Assembly (NCBI GenBank): GCA_947631505.1
Contig: CANRLR010000019.1
Location: 1 to 50,909, forward strand
From: an uncultured Lachnospiraceae bacterium
Lineage (GTDB): Bacteria; Bacillota; Clostridia; Lachnospirales; Lachnospiraceae
Reading direction: 5' to 3'
DNA: 50,909 nucleotides
Shown here: positions 17,332-33,128 of the stretch, piece after piece
Layout: each line of letters starts with the position of its first letter
Position numbering within the stretch: position 1 is the stretch's first letter
Program-made: the position numbers and the translations under genes
Notes under the pieces: generated by a model
Seen by the model: the letters and a program-made list of their open reading frames with translations, nothing else
The model's database searches: none
Told to the model about the DNA's origin: nothing

Positions 17332-18642
17332 GTGAAAGATTATTTTGATTTTATGGATAAAAGTGTCAGTCCCTTTCATGCCGTGAGGGAGGCAGTAAAA
17401 AGGTTAGAAGAGCAGGGCTTCCAGAAAATAGAAGAGAGTGAACAATGGCAGCTTCAGAAGGGCGGCAGATATTATGTCACCCGCAATCAGTCCAGTATCC
17501 TTGCATTTGATGTGCCGGACGGGAAACCGGGCTATTATCACATGACAGCCAGCCACAGTGATAGTCCGACATTTCGTATTAAGAAAAATAAGATGGAAGG
17601 AACTTACTACGCCAGAGCAGAGATAGAAGGATATGGCGGCATCATTTATTCCAGCTGGATGGACCGGCCGCTGACGTTTGCCGGGCGGGTCGTGGTAAAA
17701 ACACCGGAGGGATTGATGACTCATCTTGTTGCACCGGATAAAGATATTTTTGTGATTCCGAATCTGGCCATTCATTTCAACCGGGAGATCAATAAGGGAT
17801 ATTCTTATAATCCGCAGATTGATTTACAACCTCTTTATGGCAGCTGTGAATGTGACTTGCGGGAACAAATTCGGGATGAGCTACGGGACTGCCGGGAACC
17901 GGTAAGAAAGAACGAAAATATTCTCGATATGGATTTGGTACTGGCAGTCCGTCAGAAAGCCAGTGTGCTGGGGGCAAAGGGCGAGTATTATATTTCACCG
18001 CGGATCGATGATCTTGGCTGTGCATATACGACACTTTCAGGATATCTGAATTCAGTTGATACTGCTAAAAGTGATGGGATTCGTATTTGGGCAATGTTTG
18101 ATAATGAAGAAGTAGGAAGTGGGACAAGGCAGGGGGCAATGGGGGATTTTCTTCCCTCTGTCATTTCACGGATGGAAAATCTGCTGGGAATGACAGAAGA
18201 AGAGAGCAGACAGATTCGCAGCCGGAGCCTGCTGATCAGTGCGGATAATGCACATGCCACGCACCCGAATCTGCCGGAGAAGAGTGATAAGGAATTTCCG
18301 GTAATTTTGAACCATGGAATTGTGATGAAATATAATGCCAGTCAGAGATACACAACAACCGGAATGACAGCGGCTGTATTTGGGGAGATATGCAGAAGGG
18401 CGGATGTTCCGCTTCAGCATTTTGCCAATCGGGCAGATGCTCCGGGAGGAAGCACATTAGGAAATCTTCTCAGTCATCAGCTGAGTATTCCTATGTTAGA
18501 TATCGGTCTTCCCCAGCTGGCGATGCACAGTGCGGTTGAGACAGCCGGCTGTGAAGATGTGTTTTCTATGACAAAGGCAATTCATGCTTTTTATGAGAGC
18601 AGGGTCTATCAGGAGAGAGACGGTGTCTGGAAAGGAATATAG
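17332..18642 (+). CDS. apeB: M18 family aminopeptidase
   Basis: Zinc aminopeptidase of the aspartyl-aminopeptidase family, about 436 aa. Metal and catalytic segments are YHMTASHSDSPTF, PRIDDLGCAYT, MFDNEEVGSGTRQGA and a C-terminal MHSAVETAGCED. The start is uncertain: GTG 17332 has AAAAGGAG ten bases upstream and begins VKDYFDFMDKSVSPFHA, matching the family N-terminus; an in-frame ATG at 17311 has no clear site. Possibly co-transcribed with hflX. Confidence 0.85.
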   Translation: MKDYFDFMDKSVSPFHAVREAVKRLEEQGFQKIEESEQWQLQKGGRYYVTRNQSSILAFDVPDGKPGYYHMTASHSDSPTFRIKKNKMEGTYYARAEIEGYGGIIYSSWMDRPLTFAGRVVVKTPEGLMTHLVAPDKDIFVIPNLAIHFNREINKGYSYNPQIDLQPLYGSCECDLREQIRDELRDCREPVRKNENILDMDLVLAVRQKASVLGAKGEYYISPRIDDLGCAYTTLSGYLNSVDTAKSDGIRIWAMFDNEEVGSGTRQGAMGDFLPSVISRMENLLGMTEEESRQIRSRSLLISADNAHATHPNLPEKSDKEFPVILNHGIVMKYNASQRYTTTGMTAAVFGEICRRADVPLQHFANRADAPGGSTLGNLLSHQLSIPMLDIGLPQLAMHSAVETAGCEDVFSMTKAIHAFYESRVYQERDGVWKGI

Positions 18643-18729
18643 AGGTTCGGAATAGAAAATTACGAATAATGTAATGGTAATGGGGGATACTGATTCTATC
18701 TAATATAGAATAAGGAGTTGAAAACTACA

Positions 18730-19164
18730 ATGATAGAAGATGATACAATAAAATTGCTGCGGGAGTGTGACGCGGGAATTAAAATGGGAGTAGCGTCAAT
18801 TGACGAGGTTCTGGACTATGTGAATAATGAAACATTTAAAAACTATCTGACGGACTGCAAAAATGAACATGTGAAGCTGCAAGCGGAAATACAGACACTA
18901 TTGGACTGTTATCAGGATGAGGGAAAAGAGCCTAACCCGATAGCAAAAGGAATGTCGTGGATGAAGACAAATGTAAAGCTTGTTATGAATGAATCCGACC
19001 AAACAATTGCGGATTTAATAACCGATGGCTGTAATATGGGGACAAAATCCCTGAGTAAATATTTGAACCAGTATAAGGCGGCCGATGAAAAATCGAAGGA
19101 TATCACAAAGCGGCTGATCAAACTGGAAGAGAGACTGGTCGCAGATATTCGTGAGTATTTGTAA
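18730..19164 (+). CDS. DUF2383-like four-helix protein
   Basis: A 144-aa, mostly helical protein (LLRECDAGIKMGVASIDEVL; ADLITDGCNMGTKSLSKYLN) resembling the ferritin-like DUF2383/PA2169 group. No metal ligand set could be confirmed by eye. ATG 18730 is preferred because AAGGAG at 18712-18717 lies 12 bases upstream; an in-frame TTG at 18718 abuts that site. It is convergent with the left licD gene with 25 bp between. Function unknown. Confidence 0.55.
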   Translation: MIEDDTIKLLRECDAGIKMGVASIDEVLDYVNNETFKNYLTDCKNEHVKLQAEIQTLLDCYQDEGKEPNPIAKGMSWMKTNVKLVMNESDQTIADLITDGCNMGTKSLSKYLNQYKAADEKSKDITKRLIKLEERLVADIREYL

Positions 19165-19189
19165 ACATCATTTCCCATCTCTGTCTCTA

Positions 19190-21526
19190 TTAAATTTTTT
19201 GCAGCATTACCGCTTTATTTTGTAGCCGGCAGGTATGGAACACCGTTCCGCCATCTCCATAGCAGGCATCACAAAGTGAAATTGCAGCAGCAGCTTCGGG
19301 AGAATGATCATAAATACCCCATCCGCTATTTTGGTAGTGCTGTACCAGTTCACGGTATTGCCGCCAAAGTCCCGGATGGTTTTTTCGCAGCAATTCCCGG
19401 GCATTATAATCCGGATGCCATATCAGTGCTATTTCATCCTGATAATTTCTGAAAGCACAAAAGGTCTGTTCCATTTTCATGAGCATTTTTTCTTTGTGGT
19501 ACAATAAGGCACTGGTACTTGTACTATATAATACAATTTTTTTGAGGGTGCCATCCGGTTTCTGGATAATCGGCAGCCATTCTTCTGAAATTTCTTCCTT
19601 TTCCATGAGAGTGTTGGTTTTATGATCGTATACCGGAGAACCAATGCCGGCGATTTTCTCTCTCCAGATTTCTTTTGTATCTTCCCCGGCAAATGCGGTC
19701 AATAGTTCGACATATACGTTTTTCATTTGTTCCGACTGAACGATGACTTTGTCTGCATTTACCACACCTGGCATATTGCAATAGTATTTTAGTGCTTCCC
19801 GTGTACGCTTATCTTCTGGAGCCACTTCATCCATGACCAGTGCCGGTATATAGATGAGCTGGTTCGTGTATTTTCGGAGATTGCTAGAGTAAAAAAACGG
19901 GTGCAGGGTAAGGGTATAATCAAATTCATCATAGGGGCATTGAATTACTATCACATCCGGATGGTGTGTTTCAAAATGATATTCCTCGTAAGAAGTAATC
20001 GTTACTTCTTTTGGATAGCCATCGGTTTCGTAGTGCATTTCATCCTTTTTGACTCTTCCCAGAGAATCCTTGTAATAATAAGGTGACGGGATGACATATA
20101 CATCCGTATCTGCAGACTTCATTGCTGCACGCCATACGGATTCCAAGGCATTCCAGTGAGTACATTTATAGGGAATAAAAACAATTTCTTTTTGTACCGG
20201 GAAATCCTGCCGGAATATATCGTCTAACTGTTCTGCGAATGTTGACAGCTTTCCGGATATTTCCTCTGTAAGAGAGGAAGATGGTAGTTCCGTTCTTTCC
20301 TGCAGCTGCTGGTAAATGAGAAATAGCTGTTCGCAGTACTGTTCTAACACAGGAATACCGGCATGATTCTGTCCACACTGTTTCTCCACCAAATGACCGA
20401 TCTGAATGGCAGTATCCTGACAGTCCCCAATGAGGAGGCATGCAGAATTAATTTGTCCGCTGTGCAATAGCATTATAATATTATCATGTGCTTCTGTAAG
20501 GAGCATCAGAATGTTCCTTATCTGATTGCGAAACTGAACCGCTTTATCAATTTTCCGATTATTTGCTGACTGCATTATTGCACGAACAATTTCCCCATCG
20601 GTTTCATACATATAATGCTCTAACGGGGACACAGGAAACAGATGCTTTTCCCCTTCTTTAAAATAAGGATAGGCATGAGAGTCACACGTACGGATTGGAC
20701 GCATCCAGCCCGCTCCATATTTTATCTGCAGCAGCTGTTCGTAACCGGAGGGAACTTCTATCTGCATCTGTTCAAAGGGAACTTTAATACATTGTTCAAA
20801 GCACGATTTCGGAAATTTGTAATGTTCGTTCTGATTGCACCAAATTGCTAACATGGTAACTTCATCGGATTCGTTTTCGTGGTAAACTTCAGACAACCGT
20901 TCAAAAGCCAGATGATACAGCTGTTCTTTGATAGGCTTGTCCCGCACGATCTCTGCCCTGAAAATTTCTTCTATTTTCCTTAAATATTCTTCTAAAGTTC
21001 TTCCTTCTTTGATTTTTCCTGTATTTATCAGAGATACTACACCGGTTACCAGTACCATTAACTTTTTAAAAAAAATCAGGTCTTTTTTGTCTTTGGGCAG
21101 ATAATCCAGCCGGAAAATATCCACTCCCGCACTATAAGGGAATCCATGGCATTGTTCCAGCATTTCCTTTGAGACAAAAGCGGATCTGGAATTTTGAATT
21201 TTAATGACCATGTTGTCATCCTCTTTTGAATGGAAGTCCGAAACAAAATAACCCGGTGGTAATTCATCGAGCACGGCAACTAACTTGTCATATTCTTTTC
21301 CTAACATACAGATATCAAAATCATCATCCCATGGGATCATCCCACCGTGGCGGACAGCACCTAACAGTGTTCCGAAATCCGCAAAAAAAGTAATACCATG
21401 CTTTTGGCATAAATCCTGTATGACATGCAGCACTTCCATCTGTGCTGCCCATGCCCGCTTCATGATACTCGGTACATAAAAACCTTCCCGTACTTCATCT
21501 TCAAAATAAGAATCTGCAAATTCCAT
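19190..21526 (-). CDS. LicD-family transferase with TagF-like C-terminal domain (left arm)
   Basis: A 778-aa protein. The N-terminal LicD domain has GTLLGAVRHGG (residues 52-62) and the metal motif PWDDDFD (65-71). Family role: transfer of phosphocholine or similar groups from CDP/CMP donors to glycans. Residues ~330-430 are helical. The C-terminal ~320 residues (VVNADKVIVQSEQMK; LIWHPDYNARELLRK; CDACYGDGGTVF) recall the GT-B fold of CDP-glycerol glycerophosphotransferases. It follows the left flagellin after a terminator, mirroring the flagellin-licD order on the right. No signal peptide, so probably cytoplasmic. Donor and acceptor are unknown; CMP-aminoethylphosphonate is a context-based guess. 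The start follows AATGGAG. Confidence 0.72.
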   Translation of the reverse strand: MEFADSYFEDEVREGFYVPSIMKRAWAAQMEVLHVIQDLCQKHGITFFADFGTLLGAVRHGGMIPWDDDFDICMLGKEYDKLVAVLDELPPGYFVSDFHSKEDDNMVIKIQNSRSAFVSKEMLEQCHGFPYSAGVDIFRLDYLPKDKKDLIFFKKLMVLVTGVVSLINTGKIKEGRTLEEYLRKIEEIFRAEIVRDKPIKEQLYHLAFERLSEVYHENESDEVTMLAIWCNQNEHYKFPKSCFEQCIKVPFEQMQIEVPSGYEQLLQIKYGAGWMRPIRTCDSHAYPYFKEGEKHLFPVSPLEHYMYETDGEIVRAIMQSANNRKIDKAVQFRNQIRNILMLLTEAHDNIIMLLHSGQINSACLLIGDCQDTAIQIGHLVEKQCGQNHAGIPVLEQYCEQLFLIYQQLQERTELPSSSLTEEISGKLSTFAEQLDDIFRQDFPVQKEIVFIPYKCTHWNALESVWRAAMKSADTDVYVIPSPYYYKDSLGRVKKDEMHYETDGYPKEVTITSYEEYHFETHHPDVIVIQCPYDEFDYTLTLHPFFYSSNLRKYTNQLIYIPALVMDEVAPEDKRTREALKYYCNMPGVVNADKVIVQSEQMKNVYVELLTAFAGEDTKEIWREKIAGIGSPVYDHKTNTLMEKEEISEEWLPIIQKPDGTLKKIVLYSTSTSALLYHKEKMLMKMEQTFCAFRNYQDEIALIWHPDYNARELLRKNHPGLWRQYRELVQHYQNSGWGIYDHSPEAAAAISLCDACYGDGGTVFHTCRLQNKAVMLQKI

Positions 21527-21578
21527 AGTTGGTCTCCATTCTTTCTGATATTACCCCAGTTGATTCCCGGTTATGAAA

Positions 21579-21608
21579 AATAGAGGACATTGCTGTCCCC
21601 TATTTTCT
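21579..21608 (-). terminator. Intrinsic terminator after the left flagellin gene
   Basis: A 13-pair stem (one G:T) closes a GCAA loop: on the minus strand AAAATAGGGGACA, GCAA, TGTCCTCTATTTT. The loop and stem resemble the terminator after the right flagellin, so the two ends are homologous. Confidence 0.8.
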
Positions 21609-21648
21609 GCACAACCAATTGAAATCCGTTTACTGAACCAATCGTACA

Positions 21649-22581
21649 TTACTGTAACAGTGAAAGCACTCCCTGATTTGCCTGATTTGCCTGAGCCAGC
21701 ATAGAAGTAGCTGCCTGCTGCAAGATACTCTCCTTGGAGAATCTTGTCATTTCATCTGCCATATCCGTATCACGGATGCGGGATTCAGCAGACTGCAAGT
21801 TCTCAGCGGTGTTATCATCCACTTTAACGGTGTACTCTAAGCGGTTTTGGATGGCACCTAATTTTGAACGCTCGGTAGAAACATCCTTAATCATATCATC
21901 TACCGTTTTCAGCATAGCACTCATAAGATCACCACTGGCAACGGAAGTTGTAAGAACCGAAGTCTGGGCAATACCGGTGGCTTCTACAAAGCTGCCGGTA
22001 ATGATGCTTGTTGATACCGAAGCTGTATAAGATGTTTTTACGCCTGCTGCACCACTAGAAGCAAATGTTGCCAGACACCACTTAACTGCTTTAATGGTAA
22101 CTTCAATACCCTGTCCTTTGTTAGCACCGACCTGTAAATACTGATCTTTATAAGAACCATCTAACAGTTTCTTTTTGTTAAATTCCGTATCTGTGCTGAT
22201 ACGAGTGTACTCTTCTTTCAGTGTGTCGATTTCATCCTGAATTTTCTGGTAATCATTTTCCTGTGAAGCATCTAATACACCGGTGTTGGACGCCTGTACG
22301 ATCAGTTCACGGGTTCTCTGCAGAATCGCATGCTGCTGGTCCATCGCACCTTCTGCTGTCTGAATCATGGAAATACCATCCTGAGCATTGTCCGAAGCAC
22401 GGTTCAGACCGCGGACCTGAGCTCTCATTTTTTCAGAAATGGCCAATCCTGCGGCATCATCTGCGGCACGGTTTATCCGGTAACCACTGGATAGTTTTTC
22501 CGTAGATTTTGCAAGGTTATTTCCTACGATTCCTAACTGTCTGTTTGCATTCATAGATGTAATGTTGTGTTGTACGATCAT
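21649..22581 (-). CDS. Flagellin (left, predicted OFF in this orientation)
   Basis: A 310-aa flagellin with conserved D0/D1 ends: N-terminal MIVQHNITSMNANRQLGIVG and SSGYRINRAADDAAGLAISE, C-terminal AATSMLAQANQANQGVLSLL. The central region (~165-235; VKTSYTASVSTSIITGSFVE) differs from the right flagellin and is about 40 residues longer, so the two filaments should differ at the surface. LQRTRELIVQASN keeps the D1 motif associated with TLR5 recognition. The leader matches that of the right gene, but no sigma-28 promoter is visible upstream; it would be supplied only after inversion of 22737-25015. Strong CTCCTT (minus AAGGAGG) site seven bases before ATG. Confidence 0.95.
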   Translation of the reverse strand: MIVQHNITSMNANRQLGIVGNNLAKSTEKLSSGYRINRAADDAAGLAISEKMRAQVRGLNRASDNAQDGISMIQTAEGAMDQQHAILQRTRELIVQASNTGVLDASQENDYQKIQDEIDTLKEEYTRISTDTEFNKKKLLDGSYKDQYLQVGANKGQGIEVTIKAVKWCLATFASSGAAGVKTSYTASVSTSIITGSFVEATGIAQTSVLTTSVASGDLMSAMLKTVDDMIKDVSTERSKLGAIQNRLEYTVKVDDNTAENLQSAESRIRDTDMADEMTRFSKESILQQAATSMLAQANQANQGVLSLLQ

Positions 22582-22587
22582 AATAAA

Positions 22588-22624
22588 CCCTCCTTGTTTT
22601 TACAACCGCAAATCCATTTGCGGT
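22588..22624 (-). promoter_or_regulatory. CsrA-like hairpin plus Shine-Dalgarno site, left flagellin leader
   Basis: A perfect 8-bp stem (ACCGCAAA / TTTGCGGT) displays a TGGA loop (ATGGA with its closing base), ending ten bases before an AAGGAGGG Shine-Dalgarno. CsrA typically binds GGA in a hairpin loop plus a second GGA at the SD, as known for the Bacillus subtilis hag leader. CsrA control here is inference. Confidence 0.5.
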
Positions 22625-22652
22625 GTTGATTTCATTATTTTGTTTATAATAT

Positions 22653-22710
22653 CTAAAGGAGTAGAGATTTTTGCTGCGGGCCCGGCAGCAGACCTTGTCA
22701 CTCGCTTTAG
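22653..22710 (-). ncRNA. Structured flagellin leader element (left copy)
   Basis: On the minus strand an outer CTAAAG/CTTTAG pairing encloses an inner hairpin TGCTGC-CGGGCCC-GCAGCA (22672-22690). The right flagellin has the same element with a base-pair change in the inner stem and the identical CGGGCCC loop. This is a 5'-UTR element, not a separate gene. Confidence 0.6.
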
Positions 22711-22736
22711 CTACTATCTGTTTTTTGGCAGCTAGT

Positions 22737-22764
22737 ATGCAATAGTTGTTACTAAAAGGTTGCA
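22737..22764 (+). repeat. Left inverted repeat, predicted recombinase site IRL
   Basis: A 28-bp element that, read on the minus strand, matches the right repeat at 23 of 28 positions, including an unbroken TTTAGTAACAA core and the outer TGCAAC and TTGCAT arms. The element is itself an imperfect palindrome (ATGCAA ... TTGCA), the usual form of a tyrosine-recombinase core site. Confidence 0.8.
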
Positions 22765-22776
22765 AAATGATATTGT
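22749..22776 (+). promoter_or_regulatory. Candidate sigma-A promoter for the ATPase gene, overlapping IRL
   Basis: TTACTA (22749-22754), 16-bp spacer, TATTGT (22771-22776). The same arrangement, TTGCTA-N16-TATAGT, overlaps the third repeat before the recombinase gene. The -35 lies inside the recombination site, so recombinase occupancy could repress it. Confidence 0.4.
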
Positions 22777-22831
22777 AAATCAAAAGAGAATGACATATAA
22801 TATTACAAAAGGTCTTGGTACAGGAAAAAAA

Positions 22832-22845
22832 TGCGTATATACGCA
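22832..22845. promoter_or_regulatory. Perfect 14-bp palindrome upstream of the ATPase gene
   Basis: TGCGTATATACGCA, flanked by A-runs on the right-hand strand, 24 bp before the ATPase start. It may be an operator for a dimeric regulator; on the minus strand it is followed by seven Ts and could act as a weak terminator that keeps segment-internal transcripts from entering the left flagellin gene. Confidence 0.4.
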
Positions 22846-22868
22846 AAAATTCCATGAGAGGTGTAGCT

Positions 22869-24167
22869 ATGATAGAAAGAAAGAGTTATTTGGATAAGCT
22901 GATAAGCAAACAGAATAACGGTCTGATTAAAATTATTACGGGAATTAGAAGGTCAGGAAAATCCTATTTGCTTTTTGAAATATATAAGCAATATTTAATT
23001 GGCTCGGGGATAAAGCAGGAATGCATTATTGAACTTCCCTTAGATGAAATTCAAAATATGAAGTATCGTAATCCTATTGAGTTAGATCAATATATCCGGG
23101 AAAAGGTTTCGGATACGGATAAATATTATTATGTTTTTATTGATGAAATACAGATGGTCAGCGAAATTCAGAACCCATATATAAAACACAGCAGTGCAAA
23201 AATAGGGTTTGTGGATGTTTTGTTAGGACTCATGAAATTAAAGAATGCCGATATTTATGTTACCGGAAGCAATTCTAAAATGCTTTCTTCTGATATTTTA
23301 ACCGAATTTAAAGACCGGGGAGATGAAATACATGTAAGTCCATTGACATATAAGGAATTTTATAAGTCTTATAAGGGAGAACAACGGCATGCATGGCGGG
23401 AGTATTTTACCTATGGGGGGCTTCCCCTTGTAACATTGAAAAAGACGCATGAGGAGAAGAGTAAATATTTGAGAGATTTATTTGCAAAAACCTACATTAC
23501 AGATGTGATTGAACGAAATAAAATGAATCATAATCAGGAACTATTAGAAGATTTATTAAATTACATTTCTTCGGCAGTTGGTTCTCTGACAAATCCAAGT
23601 AAATTGGCAAAAACCTTTAAAAGTGTAAAAAATGTATCCATTTCTTCGGAGACAATTAACAAATATTTGGATTACTTTGAAGATGCCTTTATTATTACAA
23701 AAGCCCAGCGGTATAATGTTAAGGGAAGAAAATATATCGGAAGTCCCCTCAAATATTATTTTACAGATATCGGACTGCGAAATGCCAGATTAGGTTTCCG
23801 GCAGCAGGAGGAAAATCATATTATGGAAAACATTATATTTAATGAGCTTAAATTCAGAGAATTTGATATTGACGTTGGTGTTGTGGAATACAATTCAAAA
23901 AATGATGCCGGGAAAAGTATTCGTACAAATCTTGAAATAGATTTTGTTGCCAATAAGGGAAGCCAAAGGTATTATATTCAATCTGCTTTGACGGTATCTG
24001 AAGAAGAGAAGAGATTACAGGAAATTAATTCGCTGAAGCGGGTAGATGATTCTTACAAAAAAATTGTAGTGGTAAAGGATGATATAGTTCCGTGGCATGA
24101 TGAATATGGCATACTTTATATAGGAATTGAAGAATTTTTACTGGAACAAAATAGTTTGGAATTATAA
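22869..24167 (+). CDS. AAA_14/DUF4143-type ATPase carried on the invertible segment
   Basis: A 432-aa protein: N-terminal P-loop (GIRRSGKS, residues ~25-32), Walker B (YVFIDEIQ, ~93-100), a sensor-like VTGSNSKML, then a C-terminal DUF4143 region with EIDFVANKG ... YYIQSA that resembles a degenerate PD-(D/E)XK nuclease core. Such ATPases are widespread in gut Firmicutes and Bacteroidetes with no clear function. ATG 22869 follows GAGAGGTG; an upstream in-frame start at 22815 lies across the palindrome and lacks a site. Its role in the switch is unknown; it may be cargo. Lower GC than the flanking flagellins. Confidence 0.75.
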   Translation: MIERKSYLDKLISKQNNGLIKIITGIRRSGKSYLLFEIYKQYLIGSGIKQECIIELPLDEIQNMKYRNPIELDQYIREKVSDTDKYYYVFIDEIQMVSEIQNPYIKHSSAKIGFVDVLLGLMKLKNADIYVTGSNSKMLSSDILTEFKDRGDEIHVSPLTYKEFYKSYKGEQRHAWREYFTYGGLPLVTLKKTHEEKSKYLRDLFAKTYITDVIERNKMNHNQELLEDLLNYISSAVGSLTNPSKLAKTFKSVKNVSISSETINKYLDYFEDAFIITKAQRYNVKGRKYIGSPLKYYFTDIGLRNARLGFRQQEENHIMENIIFNELKFREFDIDVGVVEYNSKNDAGKSIRTNLEIDFVANKGSQRYYIQSALTVSEEEKRLQEINSLKRVDDSYKKIVVVKDDIVPWHDEYGILYIGIEEFLLEQNSLEL

Positions 24168-24211
24168 TATTACCGATGGCTGTTCATACTATTGGTAAAG
24201 CAGTCAGTTTT

Positions 24212-24239
24212 TCATTATAGTTGTTGCTAAAAGGTTGTG
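24212..24239 (+). repeat. Third recombinase-site-like repeat (direct with IRL)
   Basis: Matches IRL at 20 of 21 central positions (AGTTGTTRCTAAAAGGTTG), in the same orientation, but its left arm and the last two bases have diverged. The single central difference (G for A in the TTGTTRCTAAA core) falls where tyrosine recombinases need identical overlap sequences, so this copy may be inactive. Confidence 0.6.
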
Positions 24240-24251
24240 GATAACTATAGT
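24224..24251 (+). promoter_or_regulatory. Candidate sigma-A promoter for the recombinase gene
   Basis: TTGCTA (24224-24229), 16-bp spacer, TATAGT (24246-24251), about 40 bp upstream of the recombinase start. The -35 is inside the third repeat, giving a possible autoregulatory site. Confidence 0.4.
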
Positions 24252-24289
24252 AAAATGGAGTCAATAATATAGAGAAAGAAGGTAAAAAA

Positions 24290-24871
24290 ATGAGTACGAC
24301 ACAACCGATTAGAAACAAAGAACAACTGGAGAAATTCAGAAACTATTACAAATACAAGGAAAGAAAACCGAGAAATTATGCCTTAATTGTCTTAGGATTA
24401 AATTCGGCTCTTCGTATCAGCGATATTTTGGCTCTTCGATGGAAAGATGTCTATATCAAAGAATGTAATTGTTATCGAGAGCATATTTATGTAATTGAGA
24501 AAAAAACAGGAAAGGAGAACGTGTTTGCACTTAATCCACCAGCCATCGAGGCATTGGAATTATACCGCAGCTCTATCCAAACATACAACGAGAGCCGGTA
24601 TATCTTTTGCAGCCAGAAATACCCGGAGGAACCACTGAGCCGTTCTCAGGCATTTCGGATTATAAAAAAGGCTGCCGGATGCTGTGGACTGGACAATCAT
24701 ATCAGCTGTCATTCCTTGCGGAAAACTTTTGGATATTTTGCATGGAAGAATGGAGTTCCTCCGGCACTGCTTATGAATATTTATAATCATTCTTCCTATG
24801 AGATTACAAAAAGATATCTCTGCATTGACCAAATGGAAAAAGATGAAGTGTATTTGAACATATTTTTGTGA
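24290..24871 (+). CDS. Compact tyrosine recombinase (FimB/FimE-like invertase)
   Basis: A 193-aa site-specific recombinase consisting essentially of a catalytic domain, the size of FimB/FimE rather than of phage integrases or XerC/D (~300 aa). The catalytic residues are all visible: Arg42 (ALRISD), Lys75 (KTGKEN), His141 and Arg144 (CHSLRKTFG), His167 (YNHSSYE) and the nucleophile Tyr176 (TKRYL). It lies inside the inverted repeats it is predicted to recombine, so it moves with the segment, like hin. The start follows AGAAAGAAGG. It is the best candidate for driving the flagellin switch. Confidence 0.88.
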   Translation: MSTTQPIRNKEQLEKFRNYYKYKERKPRNYALIVLGLNSALRISDILALRWKDVYIKECNCYREHIYVIEKKTGKENVFALNPPAIEALELYRSSIQTYNESRYIFCSQKYPEEPLSRSQAFRIIKKAAGCCGLDNHISCHSLRKTFGYFAWKNGVPPALLMNIYNHSSYEITKRYLCIDQMEKDEVYLNIFL

Positions 24872-24941
24872 CGAAAAAAACGAAAATACGTTACTTTCAG
24901 CAGGTGATCCAAAAAAAATGAAAAAAATTTCAATTTGGGGT

Positions 24942-24968
24942 TAAGTATTTTAGAACAGCTCCGATATA
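24942..24968 (+). promoter_or_regulatory. Sigma-28 (sigma-D) promoter on the invertible segment
   Basis: TAAG at 24942-24945, a 15-bp spacer, then CCGATATA at 24961-24968, close to the TAAA-N14/15-GCCGATAT consensus. It points out through the right repeat into the right flagellin leader, giving a predicted ~200-nt 5' UTR. No equivalent CCGAT element was found upstream of the left flagellin. Confidence 0.75.
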
Positions 24969-24987
24969 TATAGTGTCAGAAAGAAAA

Positions 24988-25015
24988 TGCAACACTTTAG
25001 TAACAAAAGTTGCAT
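24988..25015 (+). repeat. Right inverted repeat, predicted recombinase site IRR
   Basis: A 28-bp partner of IRL (23/28 identical when IRL is read on the minus strand). Its ends are inverted arms (ATGCAAC ... GTTGCAT) around the TTTAGTAACAA core. It lies downstream of the sigma-28 promoter and so is transcribed into the leader. Confidence 0.8.
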
Positions 25016-25039
25016 TTCCAAAATGTTCTGTGATAGTAA

Positions 25040-25098
25040 CTAAAGCGAGTGGCGAGGCTTGTTGCCGGGCCCGTAACAAAACTCACTGCTCTCTTTAG
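25040..25098 (+). ncRNA. Structured flagellin leader element (right copy)
   Basis: An outer CTAAAG (25040-25045) / CTTTAG (25093-25098) pairing encloses the inner hairpin TTGTTGC-CGGGCCC-GTAACAA (25059-25079). Compared with the left copy, one C:G pair is a T:A pair and one G:C is G:U, while the loop is unchanged: covariation supporting a selected RNA structure. I do not recognise it as a known riboswitch class. Confidence 0.65.
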
Positions 25099-25132
25099 AT
25101 ATTATAAAAAAAGAAACTAAAATAAAAATAAC

Positions 25133-25169
25133 ACCGCAAACGGATTTGCGGTTGTAAAAACAAGGAGGG
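25133..25169 (+). promoter_or_regulatory. CsrA-like hairpin plus Shine-Dalgarno site, right flagellin leader
   Basis: Perfect 8-bp stem ACCGCAAA/TTTGCGGT with a CGGA loop (25141-25144), followed at 25162-25169 by AAGGAGGG. Same architecture as the left copy; two GGA sites ~20 nt apart fit CsrA bridging. Confidence 0.5.
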
Positions 25170-25176
25170 CTATATT

Positions 25177-25986
25177 ATGATAGTACAACACAATATTACA
25201 TCTATGAACGCTAACAGACAGTTAGGAATCGTAGGAAAAAATCTTTCAAAAGCAACTGAAAAACTTTCCAGTGGTTACAGAATTAACCGTGCCGCAGATG
25301 ATGCTGCAGGACTTGCAATTTCTGAAAAAATGAGAAGTCAGGTTCGTGGTCTTCAGAGAGCATCTGATAATGCACAGGATGGTATTTCCATGATTCAGAC
25401 CGCTGAGGGTGCTTTGGAGCAGCAGCATGCAATCTTACAGAGAGCTCGTGAGCTGGTAGTTCAGGCTTCCAACAGTGCTGTATTGGATAGTGCGACAGGA
25501 GACTTCGACAAGATTCAGGATGAGTTGGATCAGTTGAAAGAAGAGTTCAACTCTATTACCAGTACAACACAGTTCAATAAGAAAAACTTATTGAATGGTG
25601 ATTTGGATGAAGCATATCTTCAGGTAGGTGCGAATAAAGAGCAGGGAATTAAAGTTACAGTTTCCGCTGTTAGCTGGGCTGGTGTTTCTGTAGGTTCTTC
25701 TGGTGAGACGACTTCCGGTCTGTTAGATGATATTGATGACAAAATTACAGAAGTTTCTGAGAAACGTTCTTATCTTGGTGCTGTTCAGAATCGTCTTGAG
25801 TACAGAATTAAGGTAGATGATAATGCCGCTGAGAACTTACAGTCTGCTGAGTCTTTGATTCGTGATACTGATATGGCAGATGAAATGACAAGATACTCCA
25901 AGGAGAGCATCTTGCAGCAGGCAGCTACTTCTATGCTGGCTCAGGCAAATCAGGCAAATCAGGGAGTTCTTTCTCTCCTTCAGTAA
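25177..25986 (+). CDS. Flagellin (right, predicted ON in this orientation)
   Basis: A 269-aa flagellin with the same D0/D1 ends as the left copy (SSGYRINRAADDAAGLAISE near the N-terminus; AATSMLAQANQANQGVLSLL at the C-terminus) but a much shorter, different centre (VSWAGVSVGSSGETTSGLLD). LQRARELVVQASN retains the D1 motif linked to TLR5 recognition. It is preceded by a sigma-28 promoter on the invertible segment, a structured leader and an AAGGAGGG site, and followed by a strong terminator. It is exported by the flagellar type III system. No enzyme domain is inserted. Confidence 0.96.
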   Translation: MIVQHNITSMNANRQLGIVGKNLSKATEKLSSGYRINRAADDAAGLAISEKMRSQVRGLQRASDNAQDGISMIQTAEGALEQQHAILQRARELVVQASNSAVLDSATGDFDKIQDELDQLKEEFNSITSTTQFNKKNLLNGDLDEAYLQVGANKEQGIKVTVSAVSWAGVSVGSSGETTSGLLDDIDDKITEVSEKRSYLGAVQNRLEYRIKVDDNAAENLQSAESLIRDTDMADEMTRYSKESILQQAATSMLAQANQANQGVLSLLQ

Positions 25987-26035
25987 TCGTTTTGATTATC
26001 ATTTGTTTGAAAAACGAATTCAAATTGGTTGTATT

Positions 26036-26067
26036 AAAAATAGGAGACAGCAATGTCTCCTATTTTT
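26036..26067 (+). terminator. Intrinsic terminator after the right flagellin gene
   Basis: A perfect 14-bp stem (AAAAATAGGAGACA / TGTCTCCTATTTTT) with a GCAA loop. It is the counterpart of the terminator after the left flagellin. Readthrough would be needed for flagellin-licD co-expression. Confidence 0.85.
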
Positions 26068-26123
26068 CTCTATAAAAATAAATCAGGAGCAACAAGGGGT
26101 ACGCTTCGGAATGGGGGATTAGG

Positions 26124-28478
26124 ATGGAATTTGCAGATTCATATTTTGAAGATGAAGTAAGGGATGGATTTTACGTTTCCGGTTTCATGAAGCGGGCATG
26201 GGCGGCACAGCTTGAGGTGTTAGATGGAATCCAAAAAGTTTGTAAAAAACATCATATACAATATTTTGCGGAGTGGGGTACTTTGTTGGGGGCAATTCGT
26301 CATGGCGGTATGATTCCATGGGATGATGATTTTGATATCTGCATGACAAGTGAAGAATATAATAAATTTCTGACCGTAGCAGATGAATTGCCAAATGGTT
26401 GTTATGTGTCAGATTACCGTAAGAAAGAGTCTTATACGGATAACATGGTGACAAGAGTGGAAAACTCGAATCTTGCTATTGTCTCCAAAGAGACACTGCA
26501 GGAGTTTCATGGGTTTCCCTACATTGCAGGTATTGATATTTTTCGTCTTGATTCGCTTCCGAAATCCGAAGAACTGCAGGAAGAATACCGGACGGTGGTT
26601 TTGTATATTGCCGGAGTGATTGGGTTAATCGAACAAAAAGAGAAAGACGAAAAATCAGTAAGCCAGAATAAAATCAATGACTATTTGCGAAAAATTGAAA
26701 AAATCTGTGGGAAAAGCATTCCCCGGGATGAGCAGATAAAGAAACGGCTTCATTATCTGCTTATGGAGGTCGTACCGGTTCTTTATAAGGATAAAGAGGC
26801 AGAGATGGTCACGAATCTGCCCAAGTGGAGTGATGAATCTGATTACCAGCTGCCAAAAGCATGTTTTGCTGAGAGTGTCTCGGTACCTTTTGAAAATACG
26901 GAAATTCGTGTGCCGGTCGGCTATGAGGAACTATTGCGGAAAAAATACGGCGGAATTGGTTATATGAAGCCAATTCGGATATGGGACAGCCATGAATATC
27001 CTTATTTTCAGAAATTGAAGAAGTATCTGACGGCAAATACTGCCTTGGAATTTTTTGAATATGATTGTTCGGATGATGTTCTGGAGATTATGGAACAGAG
27101 CGGTGTACGGAATCAGAATGTGAAAAAGGATTCGCTGCAGCAAAGGATAAAAGGTTTTCTGCCTCTGTTTCAGGAAGCACATCAAAACCTTGATTTGTTG
27201 ATCAGGGAAGAAAATTATTCTTTATTTGCCGGACTTTTAGAGGAGTGTCAGAATACGGCAATTCAGATTGGTTCGATGATTGAAGAGGAACGGGGAGATG
27301 GCCACAGTACCGTTAAAATATTAGAAGAATATTGTGAATTTCTCTTTCGGGTTCATGAAAACCTGTTTGGGAACGGGGAAGAGGAAACATTAGAAATAAA
27401 TGAAATTTTTGAGCGCTTGAGACAGTTCGAGATACAATTGGAACGAAGTATAGAAGATGAACTGAAGGATAGAAAGGAAGTTGTATTGATTCCTTATAAA
27501 CCAGCCCACTGGAATGCGATGGAAAGCGTATGGCAGGCAGCGATGGAATCAGAGGATACCGATGTATACGTGGTTCCTGCTCCCTATTATTATAAAGATG
27601 CACTGGGAAAAGAAAAAATGAAAGAACTCCATTATGAAATAGAGGGGTATCCGGAACAGGTAACGATTACTTCTTATGAAAAATATAATTTTGAGGTGCA
27701 TCATCCGGATACAATTATCATTCAGTGTCCTTATGATGAGTTCAATTTCGCCATGACGATTCATCCGTTCTTTTATGTTAAAAATTTGAAACAATATACG
27801 AATCAGCTTGTGTATATTCCGGCTCTCGTGATGGATGACATGGATACGAAGGATGAGCGTGCCAAAGAAATGCTGAAAGCTTATTGCAATATGCCGGGTG
27901 TGGTAAATGCAGATAAAGTATTTGTCCAATCGGAACAGATGAAAAAGATTTATGTAGAGCTTTTGACGGAATTTGCCGGTGAGCACACAGAATCAATATG
28001 GGAAAATAAAATATTCGGCATGGGTTCTCCGGTGTATGACTGGGAAAACAATTTTCATAAAGAGGACGGGGAAGTGCCACAAGAATGGCTGCCTGTACTA
28101 CAGAAAACAGACGGTTCATGGAAGAAGATCGTATTGTACAGTACGAGTGCAAGTGCCCTGTTGTGCCATAAGGAGAAGATGATAAAGAAAATCCAAGAGG
28201 TATTTCTTGCCTTTAAAGAATACCGGGAAGAAATAGCATTCATATGGCGTCCCGATTTTAAAGTGAGGGAACTGCTTCGGAAAAGCCATCCCGGATTATG
28301 GCAGCAATATCGCAGTTTGGTACAGGAATACCGGGAGGAGGCATGGGGAATTTATGACGACTCATGTGAAGCAGAGCGTGCAATTGCTCTATGTGATGCC
28401 TGCTATGGGGATGGTGGGACCGTTATAAATACCTGCCGTACCAGAAAGAAACCAGTGAAGCTGCAGGATGTGTTTTAA
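26124..28478 (+). CDS. LicD-family transferase with TagF-like C-terminal domain (right arm, copy 1)
   Basis: A 784-aa paralogue of the left-arm LicD. The N-terminus MEFADSYFEDEVRDGFYVSG is nearly the same, followed by GTLLGAIRHGG and PWDDDFD. The middle is helical (LFQEAHQNLDLLIREENYS), and the C-terminal part repeats VVNADKVFVQSEQMK and CDACYGDGGTVINT. It follows the right flagellin by 138 bp with only a terminator between and no clear promoter. Likely role: transfer of a phospho- or phosphono-group to a flagellar or other glycan, from LicD family knowledge and the nearby CMP-AEP genes. Start after GGGGGATTAGG. Confidence 0.72.
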   Translation: MEFADSYFEDEVRDGFYVSGFMKRAWAAQLEVLDGIQKVCKKHHIQYFAEWGTLLGAIRHGGMIPWDDDFDICMTSEEYNKFLTVADELPNGCYVSDYRKKESYTDNMVTRVENSNLAIVSKETLQEFHGFPYIAGIDIFRLDSLPKSEELQEEYRTVVLYIAGVIGLIEQKEKDEKSVSQNKINDYLRKIEKICGKSIPRDEQIKKRLHYLLMEVVPVLYKDKEAEMVTNLPKWSDESDYQLPKACFAESVSVPFENTEIRVPVGYEELLRKKYGGIGYMKPIRIWDSHEYPYFQKLKKYLTANTALEFFEYDCSDDVLEIMEQSGVRNQNVKKDSLQQRIKGFLPLFQEAHQNLDLLIREENYSLFAGLLEECQNTAIQIGSMIEEERGDGHSTVKILEEYCEFLFRVHENLFGNGEEETLEINEIFERLRQFEIQLERSIEDELKDRKEVVLIPYKPAHWNAMESVWQAAMESEDTDVYVVPAPYYYKDALGKEKMKELHYEIEGYPEQVTITSYEKYNFEVHHPDTIIIQCPYDEFNFAMTIHPFFYVKNLKQYTNQLVYIPALVMDDMDTKDERAKEMLKAYCNMPGVVNADKVFVQSEQMKKIYVELLTEFAGEHTESIWENKIFGMGSPVYDWENNFHKEDGEVPQEWLPVLQKTDGSWKKIVLYSTSASALLCHKEKMIKKIQEVFLAFKEYREEIAFIWRPDFKVRELLRKSHPGLWQQYRSLVQEYREEAWGIYDDSCEAERAIALCDACYGDGGTVINTCRTRKKPVKLQDVF

Positions 28479-28506
28479 AAACATTTAGTTGTTGTGGAGG
28501 GTTGTT

Positions 28507-30846
28507 ATGGAGTTTGCAGATACCTATTTTGAAGACGAGGTAAGGGAAGGGTTTTATATTCCCAGCCTGATGAAACGGGCATGGGCGGCACAAATGGAAG
28601 TGCTGGAAATGGTCCAGAAAATATGTGAAAATCATCAGATCCGCTATTTCGCCGAATGGGGTACCTTGCTCGGTGCAGTGCGCCATGGAGGAAGAATACC
28701 ATGGGATGATGACATCGATATCTGTATGCTCCGGCAGGATTATGATCGGTTCCGTGAAGTGGTAAAAGATGAGCTTCCCGAAGAGTGTATGTTTTTTGAC
28801 TATCATAATTTGGATGGCTTTGATAATATGCTGGGTCGTATTATCAATTCAAAGGTACACGTACTGGAAGGAAAGAATCTGGAAAAATACCACGGTTTTC
28901 CTTATGTGGCAGGAATTGACATTTTCTGGCTGGACTATCTGCCTGCCGGTTCTGATGCAGAAGAACAGTATTATAAGGAGATACAATCCATCTGCAGACT
29001 GATACGAGGGATTGTGCAGAGCAAAAAAGGCGGAAATGTTATATCACCCGAACAATTAGAGTACCATATACAGAAACTGGAAAAGCTGTGTCAGGTCTCA
29101 TTGAATCGAAAAGAACCATTGATTAAGCAGCTGTACGCCCTTTTGGACAGGAGAACGCTTGCCGTTGTTCAAGGGGATGACATAAAGGAAGTTACGAATC
29201 TTTATGCATGGCGGGAGAACCGGAATTACCGGCTGCCTAAGAAATGTTATGATGAGGGGGTTTTACTGCCCTTTGAAAATGCCCGCATTATGGTGCCGGC
29301 TGGGTATGATAAGCTTCTTTTTGATAAATATGGGACAAATTGGATGAAATCGGTACGTTCCGGAGGACTCCATGATTATCCATCCTATGCGAAACAGCAG
29401 AAGTTCTTGGAAGAAGAACAGGCGGCAGAATTATTTGAATACAGATTCTCACGGAGAGAGATAGAAGAAGTCCGGGCAGCACGTGTGCCAAAGGATACGC
29501 TGCAACATAAAGTAAAAGAGTTTATCCCGCTTTTTCAAACTGCTCATAAGGAAATCTGTGAAGGGATAAAAAAAGGGGATTTTGATGCTGCCCTTCTAAT
29601 ATTAGGAGAGTGTCAGGAAACAGCAATTCAGATTGGTACATTGATTGAACAGGAGCAGGGAGAAGGACATCCGGTCGTCAGGAAACTGGAACAGTATTGT
29701 GAATTTATTTTTTACATTCATACAAAAATCGGGGAGAGGATGTTTGCTGACAAAGAAGATTTTGCGAATGTAAGTTATAAGGAATTGACGGACTTTACGG
29801 ATGAACTGTCCCGACACATAGAGTATGAATTAAAAGAAAGAAAAGAAGTGGTGTTCGTGCCTTACAGAGCCACCCTGTGGAGCAGCATGGAAAGTGTGTG
29901 GCAGGCGGCGACAGCGGAGGAGGATACGGATGTGTATGTTGTTCCGGCATCCTTTTATTATAAAGATGCATACGGAACAGCAAAAACAGAGGAGCCTCAT
30001 TATGAAACGGAGGGGTATCCGGAAAATGTCACGGTAACTTTTTACGAAGACTATAATTTTCAGGAACATCATCCGGATATTATCATAATCCAATGTCCTT
30101 ATGATGAGTACAATTACGGTATGACGTTACATCCGTTTTTTTATGCAAAAAATTTGGCAAAATATACAGACAGACTGGTTTATATCCCTGCTTTTGTAAT
30201 GGATGAGATTGGTCCGGGAGATGAGCGTGCGAGGGAAACATTAAAATCTTACTGTAATATGCCGGGAGTGGTGCATGCAGATAAAGTGATTGTACAGTCC
30301 GAGCAAATGAAAAATGTCTATGTTGAACTTCTTACCGAATTTGCGGGGGAGACTACAAGGTCAGTTTGGGAAAAGAAAATAGTGGGACTTGGTTCTCCGG
30401 TATATGATCAAAAGGCAGTGCAGAGGGAGAACATGACTTTGCCGGACGAATGGCGGCAAATCATAGAAAGACCAGATGGAAGCCGGAAGAAGATTATTCT
30501 GTACAATACGAGTGCCAGTGCAGTGCTGCATTATGGACAGGCGAAGCTTGACAAGATGCAAGAGGTGTTATATACTTTTCAAAAAAATCAGGCGGATGTT
30601 GCACTCTTGTGGCTGCCGGACAGCAAGGCAGAGCAGATACTGCAGAATACTGCCCCCGAGTTTTGGGAGCAGTATCAGAATCTGATACAGGAGTATTGTA
30701 ATGGCGGCTGGGGAATTTATGCGGATTGCTCCGAAGCTGAACAGGCGGTACAAATCTGTGATGCCTGTTATGGAGATGGCGGGAGTATCGTGAACCGGTG
30801 CCGGAATATGGGCAAAGTGGCAAGAACGGAGAATATGTTGATTTGA
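28507..30846 (+). CDS. LicD-family transferase with TagF-like C-terminal domain (right arm, copy 2)
   Basis: A 779-aa tandem paralogue of the preceding gene, starting 28 bp after it. It has MEFADTYFEDEVREGFYIPS, GTLLGAVRHGG and PWDDDID in the LicD domain; the C-terminal half has VVHADKVIVQSEQMK and CDACYGDGGSIVNR. ATG 28507 follows TGGAGG; the open frame extends to 28489. Divergence from copy 1 is spread over the full length, so this is an old duplication. The left arm has only one copy, so the two arms are not equivalent. Substrate unknown. Confidence 0.72.
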   Translation: MEFADTYFEDEVREGFYIPSLMKRAWAAQMEVLEMVQKICENHQIRYFAEWGTLLGAVRHGGRIPWDDDIDICMLRQDYDRFREVVKDELPEECMFFDYHNLDGFDNMLGRIINSKVHVLEGKNLEKYHGFPYVAGIDIFWLDYLPAGSDAEEQYYKEIQSICRLIRGIVQSKKGGNVISPEQLEYHIQKLEKLCQVSLNRKEPLIKQLYALLDRRTLAVVQGDDIKEVTNLYAWRENRNYRLPKKCYDEGVLLPFENARIMVPAGYDKLLFDKYGTNWMKSVRSGGLHDYPSYAKQQKFLEEEQAAELFEYRFSRREIEEVRAARVPKDTLQHKVKEFIPLFQTAHKEICEGIKKGDFDAALLILGECQETAIQIGTLIEQEQGEGHPVVRKLEQYCEFIFYIHTKIGERMFADKEDFANVSYKELTDFTDELSRHIEYELKERKEVVFVPYRATLWSSMESVWQAATAEEDTDVYVVPASFYYKDAYGTAKTEEPHYETEGYPENVTVTFYEDYNFQEHHPDIIIIQCPYDEYNYGMTLHPFFYAKNLAKYTDRLVYIPAFVMDEIGPGDERARETLKSYCNMPGVVHADKVIVQSEQMKNVYVELLTEFAGETTRSVWEKKIVGLGSPVYDQKAVQRENMTLPDEWRQIIERPDGSRKKIILYNTSASAVLHYGQAKLDKMQEVLYTFQKNQADVALLWLPDSKAEQILQNTAPEFWEQYQNLIQEYCNGGWGIYADCSEAEQAVQICDACYGDGGSIVNRCRNMGKVARTENMLI

Positions 30847-30865
30847 GGAAGGTCAGGACAAGGAT

Positions 30866-32005
30866 ATGAAGAATGAACAGGACAAGGTTGTTTTAGAAAA
30901 AGGCAGGGCATATTTTAATGCTGCTGTACAAATGGGAGAGTATCTATATTATTCTGCAAAAGATACGAATGGACTATTCCGAGCGGATTTATCAACCGGA
31001 AAAAGTGAGTTTATTACCATGTTTGACACAGAAAACGAGACGGATATTCATATACATGCTTTTTCCGTGAATGATGAGATATGGTTCATACCATCTTTTT
31101 GGGGTGATAAAATTGCGGTTTTTAACACAGAATCTTTGAACATAAAATATATTGACATACCAGAGACGAAGACTAAAAAAATAACTGCCGCAAATGGATA
31201 TCTGTTTTTAAAACTGATTCGAAAGGGAGATTTCGTCTGGCTTGTGCCGGGAGTTTATGATGCCTTTCTTTGTTTGAATCTAAACAACAGGGAACTAAGA
31301 AAAATTGATCTGCCAATCAGTGATTATGAAGGAATAAATTACCTTGCAGCACAAGGGTGTGAACATAATAACAAAATATATCTGTGTCCATGGGATTATA
31401 ATAAAATTCTTTCTTTTGATTTAGAAACAGAAGAGTTTAAAGAATTAGGCAGTACGGTGGAAGAACGGGTATATAGAAATATCGTTGTGAGAGAGAATCA
31501 TCTCTATTTGTTCCCTGAGAAATTACCAAATGACATTTTGGATATTGATTTGAATGTCAATGCGTGTGTCAGAAAAAAAATTGATATAGAAGATACCAGT
31601 GAACTAAATATTGTAATGTACTATGATGACCGCACAAATCAAGTGTTCCTGTTTCCGCGATTAAGGGAAAAAAGAATCTATGTACTCGATATGGGCAATT
31701 TTACTATGAATCAGATCGAAATCGAATTTGATGACAGTTACAACATTTCGGATAATGCGTATTGGCTCGTTATCACAAAAATATCAGAGGATACTTTTTA
31801 TGTAATATCCAATGATAAAATGGCTCCGATTTTGAAATGTCACAATCATACGTTTACTTCCCTGTCCCTTGCATGTCCCAAAGATTTATTTGTGAAACAA
31901 CTATTGGAATTAATGGAAAAGAAAGAAAAGGAACAGGAGCAGAAGAATGAGCAGGAGACGATTGGTGAAAAAATATTCAAGGCTATTTCCTCAGATACTC
32001 CATAA
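30866..32005 (+). CDS. Beta-propeller-like protein of unknown function
   Basis: A 379-aa protein with repeating short beta-rich units (YLYYSAKDTNGLFRADLSTG; IWFIPSFWGDKIAVFNTESL; IYLCPWDYNKILSFDLETEE; VFLFPRLREKRIYVLDMGNF), suggesting a six- or seven-bladed propeller of Kelch/YVTN type. No signal peptide or membrane segment. The C-terminus is a charged, Glu/Lys-rich tail. It lies 19 bp after the last licD gene and probably shares its transcript, and overlaps the convergent ppd gene end by 23 bp. A binding or scaffold role in surface modification is possible. Confidence 0.5.
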   Translation: MKNEQDKVVLEKGRAYFNAAVQMGEYLYYSAKDTNGLFRADLSTGKSEFITMFDTENETDIHIHAFSVNDEIWFIPSFWGDKIAVFNTESLNIKYIDIPETKTKKITAANGYLFLKLIRKGDFVWLVPGVYDAFLCLNLNNRELRKIDLPISDYEGINYLAAQGCEHNNKIYLCPWDYNKILSFDLETEEFKELGSTVEERVYRNIVVRENHLYLFPEKLPNDILDIDLNVNACVRKKIDIEDTSELNIVMYYDDRTNQVFLFPRLREKRIYVLDMGNFTMNQIEIEFDDSYNISDNAYWLVITKISEDTFYVISNDKMAPILKCHNHTFTSLSLACPKDLFVKQLLELMEKKEKEQEQKNEQETIGEKIFKAISSDTP

Positions 32006-33101
32006 ATCCTTTCTTGTTTTCTTTGGCTGTTGTGGTAGGTCTTCCTAGATCTTTTCTGGCACCAATTGAACATAACACTTCAATCATGGTAAGTTCATTA
32101 CCTGTTTTGGCGGCATTCAGTTCCCTGTCCAGTTCATCCAAAGAAGATACCCGTACCGCTTTTGGGTATCCGCAGCCCTTGGCTATTGTCACGAAATCAA
32201 TTTGCCCTGCGACAGTCGGCATACCGCCTACTGTTTCATGGGCACTATTATTGATAAGGATATGTACAAGATTTTTTGGCTGATTGGTTCCGATCAGTGC
32301 CAGAGCCCCCATATGCATCAGAACGGCACCATCGCCGTCGATACACCAGATTTTTTTTGCGGGCTGGTTCAAGGCGGCGCCCAGAGCAATGGAAGAACTG
32401 TGTCCCATAGAACCGACCGTCAAAAAATCATATTGATGTCCTTCCCCTCTTGATTCTCTTATTTCAAAAAGTTCCCGGCTTGCCTTTCCTGTAGTGGAAA
32501 TAATCGAATCGGTTCTGGCTGTCTGAACGATATGCCGGATAATCTCTTCGCGCATTATATTATTTTCGTTCGCATATTGTGGGGGTGTTTTATAGGATAG
32601 GGCATCTTTCCGTATAACAAAAGCTACATTCTTCCCTTTTTTCAGCAGCGGATTAAATTCTGTCATAGCTTCGATAAGCTGTTCTTTTGTGCTGTCTTTT
32701 CCCACTACAAAATAGGAAATGTCCATGTCATTCAGTAGTTTCAGCGTTATTTCTCCCTGAAAAATATGCTGGGGTTCATCCTTGATTCCCGGTTCTCCCC
32801 GCCAGCCAATTACGAAAATCATAGGAATTGCATAAACTTTATCATGTAATAAGGAGGCAGCCGGATTTATGATGTTTCCCTCTCCGGAATTCTGCATATA
32901 GACAACCGGAATTTTACCTGTGGCAAGATGATATCCCGCTGCCAGTGCCGTGCAATTCCCTTCATTTGCGGCAATGATATGATGATTTTTGTGAATCCCA
33001 TACCGGTTCATCAGATAATCACATAAAGCCTTGAGCTGGGAATCCGGTACCCCGGTATAAAAATCACTCCCCAGTACGTCTACAAAATCTTCTACCTTCA
33101 T
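31983..33101 (-). CDS. ppd: Phosphonopyruvate decarboxylase
   Basis: TPP-dependent enzyme, 372 aa, that converts phosphonopyruvate to phosphonoacetaldehyde, the step that makes the PEP mutase reaction irreversible in phosphonate pathways. Family segments are FYTGVPDSQLKALCDYLM, ANEGNCTALAAGYHLATGK and YMQNSGEGNIINPAASLL. The TPP motif is CIDGDGAVLMHMGALALIG followed by INNSAHETVGG. ATG 33101 is chosen because GGAGG lies six bases upstream; the open frame continues 28 codons through a hairpin-rich stretch. It lies directly downstream of pepM on the same strand. Confidence 0.92.
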   Translation of the reverse strand: MKVEDFVDVLGSDFYTGVPDSQLKALCDYLMNRYGIHKNHHIIAANEGNCTALAAGYHLATGKIPVVYMQNSGEGNIINPAASLLHDKVYAIPMIFVIGWRGEPGIKDEPQHIFQGEITLKLLNDMDISYFVVGKDSTKEQLIEAMTEFNPLLKKGKNVAFVIRKDALSYKTPPQYANENNIMREEIIRHIVQTARTDSIISTTGKASRELFEIRESRGEGHQYDFLTVGSMGHSSSIALGAALNQPAKKIWCIDGDGAVLMHMGALALIGTNQPKNLVHILINNSAHETVGGMPTVAGQIDFVTIAKGCGYPKAVRVSSLDELDRELNAAKTGNELTMIEVLCSIGARKDLGRPTTTAKENKKGFMEYLRK

Positions 33102-33128
33102 AATTACCTCCATTTGCACACGCTTCTT

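Follow-up and report, generated by a model that had tools for sequence, protein, structure and literature searches.

A predicted promoter switch with a tyrosine recombinase between two divergent flagellin genes of a Lachnospiraceae bacterium

Two divergent flagellin genes and the segment between them

The window analysed here, the whole stretch of 50,909 nucleotides (G000:C19:1-50909), comes from a genome of 2.74 Mb in 49 contigs. It carries two divergent flagellin genes whose products are 67% identical to each other (Table 1). Between them lie, in order, a left recombination site, an ATPase gene, a poor third copy of the site, a recombinase gene, a sigma-28-like element and a right site, such that the segment amounts to a unit of ∼0.8 kb plus the ATPase gene. 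The initial annotation described divergent flagellins flanking a segment bounded by inverted repeats. Both genes match Flagellin_N and Flagellin_C, and the 28-nt repeats at 22737-22764 and 24988-25015 are identical at 23 of 28 positions (82%), as that description had it. The ATPase gene, the third copy of the site and the duplicated leaders of the flagellins (below) are additions to it. No RNA families were found at gathering score in 18000-29000, and no tandem repeats in 18000-33000.

Table 1. Features of the flagellin locus, with coordinates in the window
Feature	Position	Strand	Remarks
LicD-family gene, downstream of left flagellin	19190-21526	-	54% identical to right LicD gene
Left flagellin, 310 aa	21649-22581	-	Flagellin_N and Flagellin_C over cut-off; unfaced by promoter
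Left flagellin leader	22582-22736	-	inverted duplicate of right leader
Left recombination site TGCAATAGTTGTTACTAAAAGGTTGCA	22738-22764	+	core GTTACTA 22748-22754; profile score 19.3
AAA_14/DUF4143 ATPase gene	22869-24167	+	Pfam; fills most of segment
Possible relic of inner left site	24213-24239	+	20/27 to left site
Tyrosine recombinase, 193 aa	24290-24871	+	Phage_integrase PF00589
Sigma-28-like element TAAG-N15-CCGATAT	24942-24967	+	faces right flagellin, 20 bp inside right site
Right recombination site TGCAACTTTTGTTACTAAAGTGTTGCA	24988-25014	-	core 24998-25004; profile score 35.5, window's best 27-mer
Right flagellin leader	25015-25176	+	hairpin before ribosome site
Right flagellin, 269 aa	25177-25986	+	Flagellin_N and Flagellin_C over cut-off; faced by promoter
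LicD-family gene, downstream of right flagellin	26124-28478	+	PF04991, 123 bits

Compared as 27-mers, the left and right sites agree at 22 of 27 positions, and 500 dinucleotide-block shuffles of the 307-bp right flank peak at 17 matches. The central 7 bp, GTTACTA, are identical in both. We built a site profile from both sites of 59 relatives, leaving the window out (consensus TGCAACATTTTGTAATAAAATGTTGCA), and ran it over all 27-mers of the window on both strands. Its first four places are the two sites on both strands (right site 35.5 and 21.7, left site 19.3 and 8.5), and the next-best 27-mer scores −0.7. The profile thus picks exactly the two repeats that had been proposed as inverted 28-bp sites with an identical core. 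The left site, at 19.3, scores less than any site of the 59 relatives (minimum 22.1), whose sites had trained the profile, and this low score speaks against frequent switching. With up to 3 mismatches allowed, the site pattern of the window has two matches in the 2.74-Mb genome, both at these sites, and the reversed control pattern has none in the genome.

The recombinase scores 95.2 bits against Phage_integrase (cut-off 27.1), its sole Pfam match, and thus shows no match to a serine recombinase family. Its catalytic set is complete (R42, K72, H141, R144, H167 and Y176), in agreement with the earlier description of a compact recombinase with a full set inside the segment, and among 104 aligned relatives these residues are kept in 104, 104, 103, 103, 103 and 101, respectively. 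A structure model has a mean pLDDT of 78.6, with residues 153-177 below 50. Foldseek returns XerA (5hxy) as its best match (E 3.4e-6), and the modelled catalytic domain matches the fold of Xer, Cre and lambda integrase. The FimB/FimE models PRK09871 and PRK09870 (tyrosine-type DNA invertase) reach 51.1 and 47.9 bits, below their cut-offs of 222 and 221. The genome encodes a second small recombinase (G000:C5:76945-77481) whose matching part is 41% identical; it has no flanking exact inverted repeats of 11 or more bases.

The sigma-28 consensus, as known for SigD of B. subtilis, is TAAA-N15-GCCGATAT. The window has a single sigma-28-like element between the two flagellins, and a search with a loose pattern gives no such element on the left (minus strand, 22560-22900). 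Both observations agree with the initial annotation, which describes a single sigma-28 promoter 20 bp inside the right repeat. A FliA-type sigma factor gene is present on another contig, C24 (259.5 bits, cut-off 189.6). In this assembly, the right flagellin is the one faced by the promoter-like element, with 209 bp from the −10 element to the ATG. Inversion in silico places the element 203 bp from the ATG of the left flagellin, so the identical spacing claimed by the initial annotation is off by 6 bp. Two weak sigma-70-like matches (9/12) at 22796-22767 and 22605-22577 are aimed at the left flagellin, and they hint weakly at a possible basal promoter for this gene; sigma-70-like matches in that region number 20, versus 14.7 (sd 4.8) in shuffles.

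The two flagellin leaders are inverted duplicates of each other (82-92%). Both carry a hairpin, CCGCAAAnGGATTTGCGG, just 5′ of the ribosome site (22605-22624 and 25133-25152), with ANGGA in the loop and fold z-scores of −2.4 and −2.1. This arrangement resembles the consensus of a CsrA site. Each flagellin is followed by a LicD-family gene of ∼780 aa, and a hairpin-plus-T match at 21585 may limit read-through. The surrounding island (19190-21526, 26124-30846 and 31983-36847) contains three LicD-type paralogs of ∼780 aa, as well as genes for a PEP mutase/cytidylyltransferase fusion, a TPP enzyme, a class-V aminotransferase and a nucleotidyltransferase. This gene set recalls aminoethylphosphonate synthesis, and the island may serve flagellin decoration. 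Were each LicD gene transcribed together with its flagellin, decoration too would change with the switch. Elsewhere in the genome lies a further flagellin gene of about 471 aa (G000:C6:30459-30869). No sigma-28-like match was found within 2 kb upstream of it, and flagellin expression outside the switch scheme is therefore possible.

A conserved unit beside csrA and flagellin genes

Relatives of the recombinase were collected from several sets of genomes. At E ≤ 1e-40, matches occur in 11 of 39 genomes of the genus, own genome included, and in 5 of 6 and 40 of 77 genomes of two more genera; at E ≤ 1e-30, they occur in 33 of 397 genomes of the family, and a second family draw around another centre gave the same genomes again. 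A scan of genome contigs added 17 loci, comprising 9 distant Desulfovibrio-type records and 8 of Lachnospiraceae type, among the latter one record under the name Acetivibrio and that of Eubacterium xylanophilum ATCC 35991. Viral contigs also yielded two distant relatives (37% and 35%).

In a first table of 51 loci, an inverted pair is present in 27, with the same core in 25 of these, and shuffled flanks of this set yielded a pair of at least 80% in just one of 135 trials, and never one with a common core. The full table holds 107 loci, window included. An inverted site pair flanks 78 of them, with the central 7 bp common to both sites in 72 of the 78 and a sigma-28-like element between recombinase and site in 70, again including the window. 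Site pair, identical core and promoter occur together at 67 of the 107 loci. These complete units have csrA or a flagellin within 2.3 kb in 66 cases (csrA in 64). They carry 37 different cores, and a change in the left core goes along with a change in the right one, which is what strand exchange between the two would predict. Of the 65 units that have the promoter after the recombinase, 61 have it 12-24 bp from the site; in the window the distance is 20 bp. The window has every part of this unit, with inverted palindromic sites around an identical core, a recombinase inside, a sigma-28-like element ∼20 bp inside one site and flagellin outside. The other 66 complete units are all 708-950 bp long.

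No flagellin or csrA match is found nearby at 25 of the 107 loci, many of which sit on separate branches of the recombinase tree; one of the 25 (L107) starts inside an apparent csrA. Three related recombinases without flagellin or csrA nearby (L103, L198 and L199) have inverted pairs, and a fourth (L114) has a repeat that is a 20/24 match only. All four are probably switches for other targets. Two genomes hold two units each, every one beside csrA or csrA-flagellin (L097 and L098 in G098, L110 and L113 in G054). In another (L051, G035), the recombinase gene of a csrA-flagellin unit is broken and the script detects no promoter, so that this unit is perhaps locked OFF. A contig end beside a site, which we had considered as a sign of mixed populations, occurs at just 2 of 78 loci (15 and 16 bp) and was dropped as evidence.

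We examined which way the promoter points at loci with a single target. In 66 of them it faces away from csrA-flagellin, and in two (L172 and L205) it faces csrA-flagellin; 12 further loci that have flagellin or csrA, but for which the script finds no complete unit, are outside this count. Among the 66, the promoter follows the recombinase in 64, including two with unlike cores (L111 and L158), and precedes it in L118 and L120. At L172 and L205 the script missed the right pair; by eye, the arms have a common core. Thus, comparison of segment orientation across related genomes, which the initial annotation had suggested as a check, reveals both orientations. On the recombinase tree, both ‘towards’ loci are surrounded by ‘away’ loci. 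In-silico inversion of ‘away’ relatives at the core improves their alignment to the ‘towards’ loci, from recombinase end to csrA, in all nine comparisons (6/6 for L172, 3/3 for L205), these being between species and with hand-picked relatives. For example, L159 aligns to L172 with a score of 227 over 244 columns when inverted and 151 over 133 as assembled. Of the evidence gathered, such alignments speak most strongly for inversion of the unit. Among the fetched flanks, ‘towards’ and ‘away’ relatives have no common outer neighbours at E ≤ 1e-8, and hence there is no second anchor for the comparison. The bias of 66 to 2 could reflect either OFF as the common state in the places sampled or bias or locking in many of the units. 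In 58 of 62 OFF units with like cores, a T-rich stretch follows the outer site (by a lenient rule of 4 T in a row, or 8/14), and the two together could terminate the misdirected transcript.

Judged from these loci, the usual form of the family looks like an ON/OFF switch of csrA-flagellin. A flagellin on each side is found at 2 of the 107 loci, the window and E. xylanophilum. The E. xylanophilum unit lacks an ATPase gene. Its two sites match at 23 of 25 positions and have the same core, and a single sigma-28-like element faces the right flagellin. Flagellin identity is 67% within the window, 81% within E. xylanophilum and 55-62% across the two, and the window is nested among single-target loci on the recombinase tree. 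Because identity is higher within than across loci and because of this nesting, the two-flagellin form may well have arisen by two separate duplications, as the sequences suggest; gene conversion would look alike. The claim of a convergent tyrosine-recombinase flagellar switch thus gains support from a conserved unit, but the locus is no lone oddity, being the two-target version of a family.

Proposed switching and its alternatives

We consider it very probable that the locus is a flagellin A/B switch, in which recombination at the inverted sites flips the promoter from the right to the left flagellin. The recombinase would bind the palindromic half-sites, and strand exchange within the common 7-bp core would invert the segment, thereby moving the promoter from 209 bp before the right flagellin to 203 bp before the left. 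The usual single-target unit is likely an ON/OFF switch of the flagellum, which a flagellin on each side would turn into a two-state antigen A/B switch. We infer that these two sites are substrates of the recombinase, that the segment can flip back and forth in the species and that sigma-28 starts transcription at the element; the locus would then make only the faced flagellin, now the right one. An inverted junction was sought in the organism's own assembly and none was found, and inversion in this organism is predicted from the sequence.

The ATPase gene inside the segment is likely a passenger. Counting the own genome, 7 of 39 genus genomes have similar ATPases at other places, and we rejected an essential role for it on this ground and on its absence from E. 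xylanophilum and the other complete units. The third site copy, at 24213-24239, exceeds the 19 matches that 300 shuffles reach at most, and it lies close to the position of the left site in relatives. It may be a relic of the arrival of the ATPase gene. Its presence counts against the A/B reading in so far as it raises the question of which pair is used. Were the inner copy and the right site the working pair, inversion would aim the promoter into the ATPase gene and leave the right flagellin OFF, with a segment closer to the 708-950 bp of complete units in relatives. However, the inner copy has a profile score of −5.4, has lost its outer arm and differs at one core base, whereas the outer left site retains core and arms. 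We set the copy aside as a working left site on its score and core mismatch, took the outer pair as the working pair for the same reasons, and regard use of the inner pair as very improbable.

A locked relic of a once-working switch is unlikely but has more in its favor. The weak left site or the ATPase insertion would block inversion, so that only the right flagellin would be made and the left would be a silent reserve. A left site scoring below those of all 59 relatives, the extra ATPase with the inner relic, and the one-sided orientation in relatives all fit this account, and the last counts against the A/B reading in general, since locked or rarely flipping units would give the same 66 to 2. 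Nonetheless, the core is identical on both sides, the catalytic residues are intact, and the left flagellin has kept both its reading frame and its leader. It is scarcely credible that the repeats are mere ends of the inverted duplication that gave both flagellins and their leaders, with no role in recombination. Such an origin would explain why leaders that are inverted duplicates adjoin them, but relatives with a flagellin on just one side also have these palindromic sites around the recombinase, and the profile from relatives ranks both repeats above all else in the window.

Beyond the A/B switch favored for this locus, we put forward a broader proposal tentatively, with somewhat less than even confidence. 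In Lachnospiraceae-type bacteria, a widespread family of self-contained tyrosine-recombinase units would act as ON/OFF switches of csrA-flagellin operons, and on two or more occasions, via inverted flagellin duplication, would have become an A/B switch of the whole filament coat, that is, of a flagellin together with its own LicD-type partner, which possibly adds phosphonate. In the gut, flagellin ranks among the main targets of host immunity. If the proposal is true, loss or swap of flagellin by a DNA switch would explain silent flagellin genes, and the orientation of a single segment would tell how strains differ in flagellation. Gene duplication would be a plausible route by which an ON/OFF switch becomes an A/B switch, and the one-sided ‘off’ count of 66 to 2 becomes a checkable prediction about these bacteria in their habitat.

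Comparison with known switches

The flagellar passages in the accessible part of a 2025 review of phase variation concern Salmonella, and the term ‘tyrosine recombinase’ does not occur there (PMC11868660). A search of titles and abstract openings, with subscription literature mostly outside its reach, found no earlier report of a tyrosine-recombinase flagellin A/B switch or of a csrA-flagellin inverting unit. In C. difficile, according to the accessible text of one study, the tyrosine recombinase RecV inverts a segment that controls flagellar genes, a 154-bp segment with 21-bp repeats upstream of flgB that exerts its control after transcription start, and RecV also acts at cwpV (PMC5386303). 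Set against that text, the segment described here differs in holding a promoter-like element and the recombinase gene and in facing flagellin genes. Gut bacteria reportedly have invertible promoters between inverted repeats (Jiang et al. 2019), and the window, as far as that account goes, is alike in placing its promoter between such repeats.

In the Hin switch of Salmonella (fljBA/fliC), the recombinase gene lies inside the inverting segment, and the second flagellin is distant and silenced by a repressor. The accessible parts of two papers describe how DNA inversion chooses which of two flagellins is made (PMC8987985, PMC7241687), with Hin being a serine recombinase (PMC8987985). The present locus is alike in that inversion would select between two flagellins and in having its recombinase gene inside the segment, but it differs in using a tyrosine recombinase and one promoter between two adjacent divergent flagellins. 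If our proposal is true, bacteria arrived independently at the Hin way of alternating flagellins, using a recombinase of an unrelated class.

The fim switch of E. coli has one fimbrial target, which it turns ON or OFF, and its recombinase genes lie outside the segment. Like FimB and FimE, the enzyme in the window is a small tyrosine recombinase of ∼200 aa, and in both systems the promoter is between inverted repeats. In contrast, the window recombinase scores far below the cut-offs of that family, its gene is inside the segment, and the targets are two flagellins. FimB and FimE are nonetheless its nearest match in the enzyme's mode of action.
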